A stretch of DNA of 64,000 nt, taken from Bauldia sp. (GTDB taxonomy: Bacteria; Pseudomonadota; Alphaproteobacteria; Rhizobiales; Kaistiaceae). Positions 9,555 to 15,946 of the stretch are shown here, piece by piece (the first letter of the stretch is position 1; every line of letters begins with the position of its first letter). A program made the position numbers and the translations under genes. The DNA lies in contig JANQRX010000001.1 of NCBI GenBank assembly GCA_028284325.1, positions 310,001 through 374,000 on the forward strand, read 5' to 3'. The notes beneath the pieces are model-generated. The model had not been told where the DNA came from, searched no databases, and was given only the letters and a program-made list of their open reading frames with translations.

Positions 9555-11180
9555 CTACCGCGCCTCGTCGATCTGTTGCGCGCTCAGCACCTCGTAAGCC
9601 CAGTCGGTACCGGCTTCCTCCTTCTGCGCGAAGAACAGCCGCCGCCCGTCGGTCCGCACGTTGATGAGCCCGTAGCGTAGCCCGCGGACGCCGCGCGCGT
9701 TGTCGAGGCGCGGCTTCTCGATCGCCTTGTCGCCCATGAACAGGCGGAAGCGCTGCTTCTCGGCCGGCCGGTCGTGGATGACCTTGGCCCGCGGCACCGG
9801 CTTGCGTTCATAGGCCGGCTGCGGGTCGTCGTACTCCTTCATCTTGTCGAAGTCGGCGATCGACACGCTGCGCGCGATCTCGGTCATGTAGATCAGCGGC
9901 GCGACCAGCGAATCCTTCTCCGCGTCGACCAGCCGCCGGCCGGTGATGGCGCTGGCGGCGACGATGTTCGGCCGCGGGTGGTCGTGGGTCTCCACGTCGC
10001 CCGACGAGATCACTGTCGCCAGCGGCCTGAGCCCTTCCAGGAACCGGTAGGACACGTCGTGGCTGCCGTGATGGCAGCCCTTGGCCACATCGCTCTTGAA
10101 CTCGGTGACGAACGAGGTGCCGAAGTGCGCCATGATGTGGTGCTGCGAATGGGTGTTGAGGTCGCCGGTGAGCAGGATGCAGCGGTCGCGATAGTCGAGA
10201 CGCAGGACGACGCTGTGGCCGTTGGTGTTCTTGGAATCGTCGTCGGGGAACTTCTTGAGTCCGGGATCGCCGTTGACGGCGGTCTCGATCGGGCCGAGCA
10301 CGCGCATCGTGCAGGCGCTCTCGCCGTTGGGTCCGAAGCCCGGGAGATAGGCGTCGGTGGCGGTCGAGAGCCGGGCGATCCCGGACGGCGCGCCCGAGGC
10401 GCGTTTGGTCGCGGTCGCGGCCTTGACGAACTTGCCCCACGAACCGCTCAGCGTATCGAAGTCGGGTTGGTCGAGATGGTCGGTGGCCGCCAGCGCCGAG
10501 CTGCGGTTGGTGAGCAGCTTCACATAGTGGCCGTTGCGGGTGGGCCCGAGGCTCCGCTTCGCCCGGCCGTCGCTGTCGAGCCCGTTCCACCACCACGACA
10601 GGCCGGCGTGGTAGACCGTCTCCACCGTCACGTCCGAAGCGTCGAGCTCGGCGCGGTTCTTCTCGTCCTGGTCGATGAGATCCCACAGGCCGCCGAAATG
10701 GTCGATGTCGTTGTGGGTGGCGATCATGGCGTCGAGCATGATCCGGGTCTTGTCCGGATCGTCGCGATCGGCCCACGAGACGTAGTCCTTGAAGAACTTC
10801 CAGTCGACGAAGTCGGCGGCGTTCTTGCCGCCATTCTGGCGCAGCCGGATGTTGCCGCCGTCGACCATCAGGTTGTGGCCTTCCGGCGTGACGATCATCA
10901 GCCCGTCGCCCTGGCCGACGTCGATCACGTAGACTTCCAGGAGCGGCTCGCCGCCGAGATGGCGGCGGTGCACCCAGTATTCGACGCCACGGCCGCTGAC
11001 CCGCACGGCGTCGCCGTCGACTTTCAGCCGGCGGACGCGATCGCCCCAGATGTAGCTGCCCCGGCGCCCGGAGCGGGCGCTGCCGCTGCCGTCGTCGCGC
11101 TTCGCCTTCGCGGCGCTGGAATAGAACGGCGCGATGTCCGACTTGACGACATCGTCCCACCACTGTGCGCGTGCCGGCAT
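9555..11180 (-). CDS. Stand-alone ComEC/Rec2-like metallo-beta-lactamase fold hydrolase
   Basis: The protein resembles the soluble C-terminal MBL domain of the competence protein ComEC. Motifs are DVGQGD at residues 87-92, NLMVDGGN, the metal-binding ATHNDIDHFGG (154-164), the aspartate in ILLTGD, and KGCHHGSHDVS with the late histidines. There are no membrane segments, so it is not a DNA channel. At 541 residues it is longer than a bare ComEC domain, with an extra N-terminal region and a C-terminal region after residue about 440. ATG at 11180 is chosen because GGAGG lies just upstream. Relatives are usually annotated only as MBL-fold hydrolases. The substrate is unknown; a nucleic acid or nucleotide is plausible. 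Confidence 0.75.
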   Translation of the reverse strand: MPARAQWWDDVVKSDIAPFYSSAAKAKRDDGSGSARSGRRGSYIWGDRVRRLKVDGDAVRVSGRGVEYWVHRRHLGGEPLLEVYVIDVGQGDGLMIVTPEGHNLMVDGGNIRLRQNGGKNAADFVDWKFFKDYVSWADRDDPDKTRIMLDAMIATHNDIDHFGGLWDLIDQDEKNRAELDASDVTVETVYHAGLSWWWNGLDSDGRAKRSLGPTRNGHYVKLLTNRSSALAATDHLDQPDFDTLSGSWGKFVKAATATKRASGAPSGIARLSTATDAYLPGFGPNGESACTMRVLGPIETAVNGDPGLKKFPDDDSKNTNGHSVVLRLDYRDRCILLTGDLNTHSQHHIMAHFGTSFVTEFKSDVAKGCHHGSHDVSYRFLEGLRPLATVISSGDVETHDHPRPNIVAASAITGRRLVDAEKDSLVAPLIYMTEIARSVSIADFDKMKEYDDPQPAYERKPVPRAKVIHDRPAEKQRFRLFMGDKAIEKPRLDNARGVRGLRYGLINVRTDGRRLFFAQKEEAGTDWAYEVLSAQQIDEAR

Positions 11181-11344
11181 GGTGCGTCCTCCGCCTCCGA
11201 CGCTGACCGTCGGAAAGTGGTGGCACACCTATCGCCGTCGTGCAACCTGTGCGGGCATTGTGCGGGCCCTCCGGCGCCCCGCCGTACGAACGGCAACGGC
11301 CCGGCAGGCGCCGGGCCATCTGTTGATGACGTCAGCCTGTTGGC

Positions 11345-13390: not shown

Positions 13391-13439
13391 AATCGGGCCC
13401 CACGGGTGTGACGCTCGTCACACCTCAAGGGTCTCCTGG

Positions 13440-14027
13440 CTAGGTCGAAACCTGAACGGTCCAGTCGCGAATGAAAGTTCCAAGCCGTGCGACATCTCGC
13501 TTTGTCAAGGTGCCGCTATGCATAATGACGTTTCGAGAGCGATGAACTATCTCGAACACGCCTGACGCCCATTCAATACTGTGAATAAAAGGCTCAAAGT
13601 GTTCATAGTTGTTCTTAATGATGTTCATTAGATTGGGTAACATAGTGTAATTCAACGGATGCTCCCCTCGCGCTGAATGCCACCTTGCTTCTTCATCCTT
13701 CTTCTTAAGCGCCTCAGCTTGCTTCTTCATCCGATCCGAAACACATTGCTCCCACCAGTTGTCGCCAATCGCCTCAATCAACGTATCTTTAATCAACTCC
13801 CTTACGGAATTCTCGAACGCAGCTACCGCAGTATATACTATCGACATATCGCGAGCAGAAAAAACAAGCTGCGCATCCAGAATGTCTATCGACAGGAGCG
13901 AGAAGAACTCATCATATTCTGACGGCGTCGGTTCATCACGTAATCGACCGGCGCGGTCAAGTGCCTCCTCCGTCAACTGACCACGGTATACGAAGTCGTA
14001 AAGCCGACTTCCATCGTCTTCTTTCAC
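13440..14027 (-). CDS. Swt1-type HEPN domain protein (putative RNase effector)
   Basis: The 195-residue protein matches the HEPN_Swt1 family. Its C-terminal RSRNVIMHSG carries the HEPN catalytic pattern R-x4-H (R165, H170), found in metal-independent RNases of toxin-antitoxin and defence systems. The N-terminal helices (SIVYTAVAAFENSVRELI) and the central NWWEQCV region are also typical. The start is GTG at 14027, overlapping the DUF5343 stop by four bases (GTGA), so the two proteins are made together. Base composition is clearly more AT-rich than the flanking genes, a sign of horizontal transfer. RNase activity is an inference from the motif. Confidence 0.82.
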   Translation of the reverse strand: MKEDDGSRLYDFVYRGQLTEEALDRAGRLRDEPTPSEYDEFFSLLSIDILDAQLVFSARDMSIVYTAVAAFENSVRELIKDTLIEAIGDNWWEQCVSDRMKKQAEALKKKDEEARWHSARGEHPLNYTMLPNLMNIIKNNYEHFEPFIHSIEWASGVFEIVHRSRNVIMHSGTLTKRDVARLGTFIRDWTVQVST

Positions 14028-14656
14028 CGTAAATGTTCCCGTAAGCTTCGAAACAGCGCATCATACACTTCAGGGTCGCGAGATTCAGGTAGTATTATTT
14101 GGATGTTATAATGCAGGCCGCCCATCGACAGTGTGTTGAGTTCGGGGCTGTCGCGTTCATCTGCTCCCGATTCCTTTTCTACGCTCGGCTCGCCACCGTC
14201 ACTGGCCGGCGTTGGAATCTGAGCAGGTTTTGATTTGAAGTCGGCTAGCTTCACCAGGGCCACGAATGTCGACGCCATTTTGTCAACCACTGAATCACTA
14301 TACTGCCCCTGTGACAGTGTCTTAAATTTGCCGACAACGTCTGACTTCTGCATCTCGTGCGCATTGATATTAACTTGGAATAGATCGGAGTAAGAACGTC
14401 GAATTGCTTCCGCTAGTACGGCGGCAGATTGAGTTTGATCTAGGAATCGGAAGTAAGTATCCGTCGGTCGCCCATCGTCAGCTAAGAATCCAAGGCCTTT
14501 GAGGACGCCGATGACAAGGCGGTCACTGTTCGATTTAAAGTCCAGAGAAAATAAGAATCGATTAGTGAACCGTTGCGGTGCCTGAGCAGTCTTTAGCGCC
14601 TCAAGTATGGACTCGAGATTTTTCGTACTCGTCAGGTATGACGTCGGAAGTGACAT
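14024..14656 (-). CDS. DUF5343 domain protein, partner of the HEPN gene
   Basis: This 210-residue protein begins SLPTSYLTSTKNLESILEAL. It has KSNSDRLVIGVLKGLGFL, FRFLDQTQS, SYSDLF and FKTLSQGQYSDSVVDKMASTF, all typical of DUF5343, a winged-helix-like family of unknown function. The acidic Ser/Glu-rich linker (about residues 148-170) separates a short C-terminal strand region. It is the first gene of a two-gene operon with the HEPN protein and could be the antitoxin or sensor. The leader carries GGAG nine bases before the ATG. Its promoter (14703-14732) contains a LexA-type box. Confidence 0.8.
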   Translation of the reverse strand: MSLPTSYLTSTKNLESILEALKTAQAPQRFTNRFLFSLDFKSNSDRLVIGVLKGLGFLADDGRPTDTYFRFLDQTQSAAVLAEAIRRSYSDLFQVNINAHEMQKSDVVGKFKTLSQGQYSDSVVDKMASTFVALVKLADFKSKPAQIPTPASDGGEPSVEKESGADERDSPELNTLSMGGLHYNIQIILPESRDPEVYDALFRSLREHLR

Positions 14657-14702
14657 CCCATGTCTCCGGCAAGTTGCGGTCGCAGTAGCCCGAACTTATG
14701 CG

Positions 14703-14732
14703 AGAATAGAACAAAAAGAGAACAAATGTCAA
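14703..14732 (-). promoter_or_regulatory. Sigma-70 promoter with embedded LexA (SOS) box
   Basis: On the minus strand TTGACA (14732-14727) and TATTCT (14708-14703) are separated by 18 bases and would start transcription about 40 bases before the DUF5343 ATG. The spacer contains GTTCTCTTTTTGTTC (14723-14709), a perfect match to the alphaproteobacterial LexA site GTTC-N7-GTTC. LexA bound here would block RNA polymerase, so the module should be switched on by DNA damage. The match is direct sequence evidence; LexA control is an inference. Confidence 0.75.
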
Positions 14733-14737
14733 TATAC

Positions 14738-15946
14738 CTAAACCTCCTCCACCTGCGAGAAGGGGAGTTCGGGAAGGTTCTGGCGCGGCTTGGCGGGTTT
14801 GGGCGGGGTTACGGCCGGTGTGTCCGGGGCCTCGCCGTCGTCGATCTCCACCGCGCCGATCTTCTCCGCCCGGCTGGTCACCTTGCGGGTGGAGATCAGG
14901 ATCTGGTCGACGTCCTTGCCGGTCTGGGCGAAGTGTCCCTGCAGCTTGCGCACCCGGTCGTCGAGGCGGGCGACGTCGTCCATCAGCTTCATCACCTCCT
15001 CCTGGATCACATGCGCCTGCTCGCGCATGCGCGCGTCGCGTAGGAGCGACATGACCACTTGGATGGAGAGCATCAGCAGCGACGGCGAGACGATCACCAC
15101 CCGCGCCCGGTGCGCCTTCTGGATGATGTCCTCGAAGCGCTCGTGGATGTCGGCGAAGATCGATTCCGACGGCACGAACATGAAGGCCGTGTCCTGGGTC
15201 TCGCCGGGCACGAAGTAGCGCGCCTGGATGTCGGTGATGTGCTTGACGGTGTCGCGGCGGAACTGCGCCTCCGCCGTCTTCATCGCCTCCGGCGTCGCCG
15301 CCTCGCGGATCAGGTTCCACGCCTCCAGCGGAAATTTGGCGTCGACCACCAGCGCCGGCAGGCCGTTGGGAAACAGGATCAGGCAGTCCGGCCGCGTGTT
15401 GTTCTTCAAAGTGGGTTGGAAGATGTAGCCGGAGGCCGGCAGCCCGTCGCGGATGATCGCCTCCATCCGCCCCTGGCCGAAGGCGCCGCGGGTCTGCTTG
15501 TTGGCGAGGATGTGCTGCAGCTCCACCACCTGGCTCGACAGCGAGGTGATGTTCTGCTGCGCCTTGTCGATGACGGCGAGCCGCTCGCCGAGGCGCTTGA
15601 GGTTCTCCTGGGTGCGGTTCGCGGTCTCGGCCACGGTCTGGCCGACATTGCGGCCGAGCCCGTCGAGCCGTTCCGACATGTTCTTGACCTGGCCGGTGAT
15701 CTCGCTCTGGACCCGGGTGAGCTCGGCGAGCCGCTGCTGCATCTCCGCCGCGCGCGCCTTCTCCGCCTCCTCGGCCCTGAGCGCGGCGCGGTCGGCGCGG
15801 ATCGCCGCCTCCTCGGCCTGCCGCGAGGCGCGCCGCCAGGCGAGAAACACACCTGCGAGCAGCACAGCCAGCGCCAGCGCGGCGAGCGCGACAAGGGCCG
15901 TCTCTCCGGCGATGGTCGTACCGCCGATGGTGATGACGCCGTTCAT
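14738..15946 (-). CDS. rmuC: DNA recombination protein RmuC
   Basis: RmuC limits inversions and rearrangements between short inverted repeats and has a PD-(D/E)xK nuclease-like fold. The 402-residue protein has an N-terminal membrane segment (residues 15-38), a long alanine/glutamate-rich coiled coil (40-140), and then the RmuC domain with GAFGQGRMEAIIRDGL, RPDCLILFPNG, VVDAKFPLEAW and AFMFVPSESIFADI. The lysine in VDAKFP belongs to the nuclease-like motif. The C-terminal tail is proline-rich. It stands alone, upstream of the SOS-box module in the same direction. Confidence 0.93.
   Translation of the reverse strand: MNGVITIGGTTIAGETALVALAALALAVLLAGVFLAWRRASRQAEEAAIRADRAALRAEEAEKARAAEMQQRLAELTRVQSEITGQVKNMSERLDGLGRNVGQTVAETANRTQENLKRLGERLAVIDKAQQNITSLSSQVVELQHILANKQTRGAFGQGRMEAIIRDGLPASGYIFQPTLKNNTRPDCLILFPNGLPALVVDAKFPLEAWNLIREAATPEAMKTAEAQFRRDTVKHITDIQARYFVPGETQDTAFMFVPSESIFADIHERFEDIIQKAHRARVVIVSPSLLMLSIQVVMSLLRDARMREQAHVIQEEVMKLMDDVARLDDRVRKLQGHFAQTGKDVDQILISTRKVTSRAEKIGAVEIDDGEAPDTPAVTPPKPAKPRQNLPELPFSQVEEV

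Follow-up and report, generated by a model that had tools for sequence, protein, structure and literature searches.

The DUF5343-HEPN gene pair in the window (the whole stretch of 64,000 nucleotides of Bauldia sp. DNA that was analysed) is preceded by a promoter overlapping a GTTC-N7-GTTC operator, as in the LexA (SOS) regulon of Alphaproteobacteria, and the sequence comparisons give good support for a LexA-controlled module. The favoured reading, with a probability of roughly 0.7, is that the pair is inducible by SOS and acts as a HEPN RNase toxin or abortive-infection module, laterally acquired, with a LexA-blocked promoter and with DUF5343 as the partner of the HEPN protein.

Read base by base on the minus strand, the order is the rmuC stop codon (14740-14738), TTGACA, TTT, GTTCTCTTTTTGTTC, TATTCT and the DUF5343 ATG at 14656. 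The 18 nt between the two promoter elements consist of TTT and GTTCTCTTTTTGTTC, so that an intact alphaproteobacterial LexA box, with the consensus GTTC-N7-GTTC as given in PMC8565304, lies inside the spacer. The first-pass annotation had described an exact GTTC-N7-GTTC between TTGACA and TATTCT elements 18 bases apart, which agrees with every base read, and a promoter leading into DUF5343 and HEPN genes, which the Pfam matches of the two products (PF17278 and PF18731, table) bear out. The box and promoter are found about 50 nt ahead of the DUF5343 start and just past the rmuC stop, and the site at 14723-14709 is the sole exact GTTC-N7-GTTC of the window. The gap from the rmuC stop to the -35 element is too short to hold a terminator, and read-through from rmuC could therefore give LexA-independent expression of the module.

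Table. Features of the module and its surroundings, in positions of the window
Feature	Position	Strand	Remarks
Low-GC acquired stretch, module and promoter	13400..14740	.	about 48% G+C versus about 68% in the flanks; boundaries approximate
Swt1-like HEPN protein, 195 aa (PADLOC PDC-M34B)	13440..14027	-	PF18731 HEPN_Swt1 E=7e-8; PDC-M34B E=8e-68
DUF5343 protein, 210 aa (PADLOC PDC-M34A)	14024..14656	-	PF17278 E=3e-42; PDC-M34A E=1e-78
-10 element TATTCT	14703..14708	-	from sequence; 18-nt spacer to the -35 element
LexA box GTTCTCTTTTTGTTC (GTTC-N7-GTTC)	14709..14723	-	occupies most of the -35/-10 spacer
-35 element TTGACA	14732-14727	-	from sequence; perfect sigma-70 consensus; a few nt past the rmuC stop
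rmuC, flanking host gene outside the module, reading toward it	14738..15946	-	PF02646 E=3e-56

The two genes share 4 nt (GTGA), in which the DUF5343 stop and the GTG start of HEPN overlap, and they are adjacent in nearly all loci examined. In the alignment of HEPN homologues R165-x4-H170 is invariant (24 of 24 sequences) and satisfies the R-x4-6-H catalytic motif of HEPN ribonuclease toxins. The predicted structure of this protein is all-helical and confident (pLDDT 87). In DUF5343, according to the model (pLDDT 84) and the alignments, residues 1-140 form a confidently predicted, mostly helical domain, which is followed by a disordered linker and by a C-terminal segment, LHYNIQIILPESRDPEVYDALFRSLREHL, that is conserved; the modelled layout suggests a tail that would suit partner binding. 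A sequence search of the PDB gave no significant match. The fold search gave no significant PDB match for either predicted structure, so that the grounds for the predicted nuclease activity are the Pfam match and the R-x4-H motif. In Devosia sp. YR412 the HEPN gene is frameshifted (L043:4624-5192), with the DUF5343 gene and the LexA-like box intact.

None of the 27 other family genomes has the module and this, together with the low GC content of the module, shows a lateral acquisition that by its sequence included the promoter. No useful plasmid relatives were found, the HEPN query giving one distant cyanobacterial match. The search among phages and viral contigs also gave no useful relatives, and there is therefore no sign of the close clade being phage-borne. 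Two gammaproteobacterial copies of the pair (L074 and L075) have an integron attC-like sequence just upstream, so that the module may be a mobile gene cassette. The window also encodes, at 9555-11228 on the minus strand, an MBL-fold protein of 557 aa that weakly resembles ComEC as well as the MBL effectors of the defence systems LmuA, Avs1a and PDC-M48B.

The genome has one LexA and one RecA. Its recA gene carries the box GTACATGTTTTGTTC, lexA the boxes GTTCCAGTTGTGTTC and GTTCGTGTTTTGTGC, dinB GTTCATGTTATGTTC, and imuA and dnaE GTTCATGTTTTGTTC; ssb, uvrA and comM/YifB, with gene identities checked, also have a LexA box. One mismatch in the GTTC half-sites is found in two of nine SOS boxes. 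The nine sites from the genome's SOS genes, with the window site excluded, were used for a matrix of 15 positions, which gave leave-one-out scores of 7.1 to 22.7 bits for these boxes. The matrix, built on a single genome, was also used to score other species; the thresholds were chosen during the analysis, the 13-bit cut being fixed before the matches were seen.

Significance of the bare eight-base motif in itself was considered and rejected, as shuffles of the window expect 1.86 matches per 64 kb and one is found. The count in 64 kb is thus within what chance gives, and the case for LexA therefore rests on other evidence. Genome-wide statistics, which are pattern counts only, gave 112 matches to GTTC-N7-GTTC and 44 to the reversed control pattern, a difference that reveals a genuine excess of the motif in some part of the genome. 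Scored with the matrix, the window site reaches 16.2 bits and is the only one in the window at or above 13 bits. Shuffles of the 150 bp upstream of DUF5343 reach this score at P about 0.001. The site is 12th among 100 listed GTTC-N7-GTTC sites (of the 112 in the genome), amid SOS promoters, in a ranking that includes the matrix sites themselves, and its A/T core resembles that of the genome's SOS boxes.

The 15-mer GTTCTCTTTTTGTTC recurs identically in the same genome upstream of an MT-A70 methylase gene. The shared stretch covers 18 nt, TTGTTCTCTTTTTGTTCT, about 35 bp upstream of the methyltransferase gene (L042:1501-1515 and 1551-2941; G000:C12:229054), and a gene for a BglII-type restriction endonuclease faces the latter in convergent orientation, the two forming a restriction-modification locus. 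This locus looks SOS-controlled too and, because it carries the identical box, the genome may wire other defences to SOS in the same way. A strong box, GTTCATGAAATGTTC (L037:1501-1515; G000:C9:468562), is found upstream of two opposite-strand ORFs, of which one has an HD domain and the other no Pfam match, possibly another SOS-controlled module. A possible further SOS gene, for a radical SAM protein of the PA0069 family (L029:337-1515; G000:C2:220748), has the box GTTCTTGCTTTGTTC immediately upstream.

Four close homologues of DUF5343, with 60-63% identity, belong to Devosia sp. YR412 (L043), an uncultured alphaproteobacterium (L044), a Hyphomicrobiales MAG (L045, the same locus as L012) and Brevundimonas (L046). 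Upstream of DUF5343 the first three have GTACCTCTTTTGTTC at -48, GTTCTGCATTCGTTC at -74 and GTTCATGTTTTGTGC at -53, respectively, while Brevundimonas, a member of the closest clade, has no box there. The half-sites of L044 are perfect, with a GC-rich core that lacks matrix score. The one-mismatch forms in the relatives (GTAC...GTTC and GTTC...GTGC) match the kinds seen at recA and lexA of the host genome. The neighbouring genes differ in all four homologues, and the shared motif is therefore not simple conservation of a longer block.

Only five matrix matches of at least 13 bits occur in the 179,108 bases of the window and the first-gathered DUF5343 loci. All five are immediately upstream of DUF5343 genes, namely those of the window, L043, L045, L066 (38% identity) and L068 (29% identity), and shuffles of the 150-bp upstream regions gave P values of 0.001, 0.0005, 0.0005, 0.0085 and 0.0035, in that order. 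Scores are strong in L043, L045, L066 and L068 and weaker in L044, L017 and L067. Ten locus stretches added later (about 32 kb) gave one further match that reached 13 bits, the box GTTCACATATTGTTC at L091:3260-3274 (14.8 bits), which is unlinked to the DUF5343 gene of that locus. In a count without the matrix, 4 of 27 alphaproteobacterial upstream regions have a perfect GTTC-N7-GTTC and 11 have the motif with at most one mismatch. Control spacings gave 0-1 perfect and 2-8 within one mismatch in the same regions, and control letter orders of GTTC 0-1 and 0-6.

No recognisable box was found in the upstream regions examined of most distant alphaproteobacterial homologues, nor in any of the seven gammaproteobacterial homologues. 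In the latter the gammaproteobacterial LexA box CTGT-N8-ACAG and GAAC-N4-GTTC were also sought, with one-mismatch chance matches at most, and SOS control of the module is therefore not claimed outside Alphaproteobacteria. In the DUF5343 tree the boxed modules occupy three separated places and L066, which is boxed, groups with gammaproteobacterial copies without a box. Since this scatter needs a minimum of four changes, LexA control looks to have been gained repeatedly and not inherited throughout. Among the loci compared, a partial census collected by protein similarity, the box is strongly enriched and recurrent at DUF5343 modules, judged by sequence, and is not universal. The comparison of homologous promoters which the first-pass annotation had proposed thus turned out in two ways: the box recurs at the same place in other Alphaproteobacteria, and it is missing in Brevundimonas and in most of the distant homologues. 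LexA control as such, also proposed there, gains support from a box common to the genome's SOS promoters and to homologous alphaproteobacterial modules.

These comparisons bear on what the box is. A constitutive promoter whose AT-rich DNA happens to match the LexA consensus would be in keeping with the abundance of the pattern (112 in the genome, 1.86 expected per 64 kb) and with the unboxed L046 of the closest clade. This is nevertheless very improbable, as the matrix matches cluster at homologous promoters, with the shuffle P of about 0.001 at the window site, the enrichment is specific to spacing and word, and the A/T core is as at the genome's SOS boxes. Slightly less probable again is a direct repeat that has the likeness of a LexA box only and serves a different repressor as operator, such as DUF5343 acting on its own promoter. 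Antitoxins often autoregulate, and DUF5343, predicted to be mostly helical, has a few non-significant structure matches to winged-helix regulators of the IclR type; the motif, however, matches the LexA boxes of the host including the recA and lexA variants, and the gammaproteobacterial homologues of DUF5343 lack the repeat, as expected if the repeat follows the LexA of the host rather than DUF5343.

The role of the module leaves somewhat more room. LexA control could be real and the module an accessory of the damage response or of repair, processing RNA or DNA, perhaps with rmuC, and be neither toxin nor anti-phage system. The box groups the module with repair genes, the module is placed directly behind rmuC, and no paper in the literature covered was found to describe the function of DUF5343. 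The sporadic distribution, low GC content and unrelated neighbours in relatives, however, are more in line with a mobile defence or toxin module than with a repair gene, rmuC is not a neighbour in the other loci read, the pair is listed as a phage-defence candidate and two gammaproteobacterial copies look integron-borne. A repair accessory is accordingly judged unlikely, although clearly less so than either of the two preceding explanations.

Under the favoured reading of an SOS-inducible toxin or abortive-infection module, the two genes behind rmuC would be driven by their own strong promoter, and host LexA bound to the box between the -35 and -10 elements would block initiation by RNA polymerase. 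DNA damage or phage attack would yield single-stranded DNA, on which RecA filaments would form and bring about self-cleavage of LexA. Loss of LexA would turn on both translationally coupled genes alongside the repair regulon. The HEPN protein would then most likely act as an RNase on RNA, resulting in slower growth or aborted infection, while DUF5343 would be its partner, either an antitoxin or a sensor and activator, which restrains or directs the RNase.

A wider proposal, plausible but tentative, is that host LexA has taken control of DUF5343-HEPN pairs repeatedly among Alphaproteobacteria, on three or more occasions in the tree, with SOS serving as the sensor of infection or damage that licenses an abortive HEPN RNase, and that the same genome may wire other defences likewise. 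The box makes the regulation of a candidate defence system that is still uncharacterised accessible to experiment. If the module is gated by LexA, SOS induction would be the trigger and mitomycin C a means of inducing the putative toxin for study; the usual view of such modules as constitutive or self-regulated would also need amending. Repeated gain of a host operator by a mobile module would show how moving toxins join the stress network of a new host.

The DUF5343-HEPN pair is already catalogued as the candidate phage-defence system PDC-M34 of PADLOC. The module has adjacent M34A and M34B genes as PDC-M34 defines, in the same order and with the E values given in the table; the PADLOC entry is defined by proteins only, and its listing is as a phage-defence candidate. 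In the literature covered, without subscription papers and most preprints, no paper was found on DUF5343, PDC-M34 or its LexA promoter. MntA-HepT (MNT-HEPN) likewise has two genes and a HEPN protein with R-x4-6-H, but the partner in the present module is DUF5343 and not an MNT nucleotidyltransferase, and HepT was at rank 44 (E=2.7, not significant) in the fold search with the HEPN model. TisB, SymE and YafO of E. coli are LexA-repressed toxins released on DNA damage; these are other proteins, with the box CTGT-N8-ACAG and some with antisense RNA control.

AbpAB is a two-gene phage defence activated by phage or by DNA damage, and its activation by damage is reported to be independent of RecA and LexA (PMC10732053). 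Damage can therefore trigger defence without LexA, whereas the link proposed for DUF5343-HEPN is transcription via LexA. The nearest documented parallel is higBA of Caulobacter crescentus, a LexA-repressed toxin-antitoxin operon whose LexA-dependent promoter arrived with the operon at an intergenic site (PMC13384398). HigB and HigA belong to another toxin-antitoxin family and their operon has its own antitoxin as an additional repressor, but both cases involve an alphaproteobacterial two-gene module that brought its promoter along, the module being toxic and the promoter LexA-dependent in Caulobacter and both probably so here.
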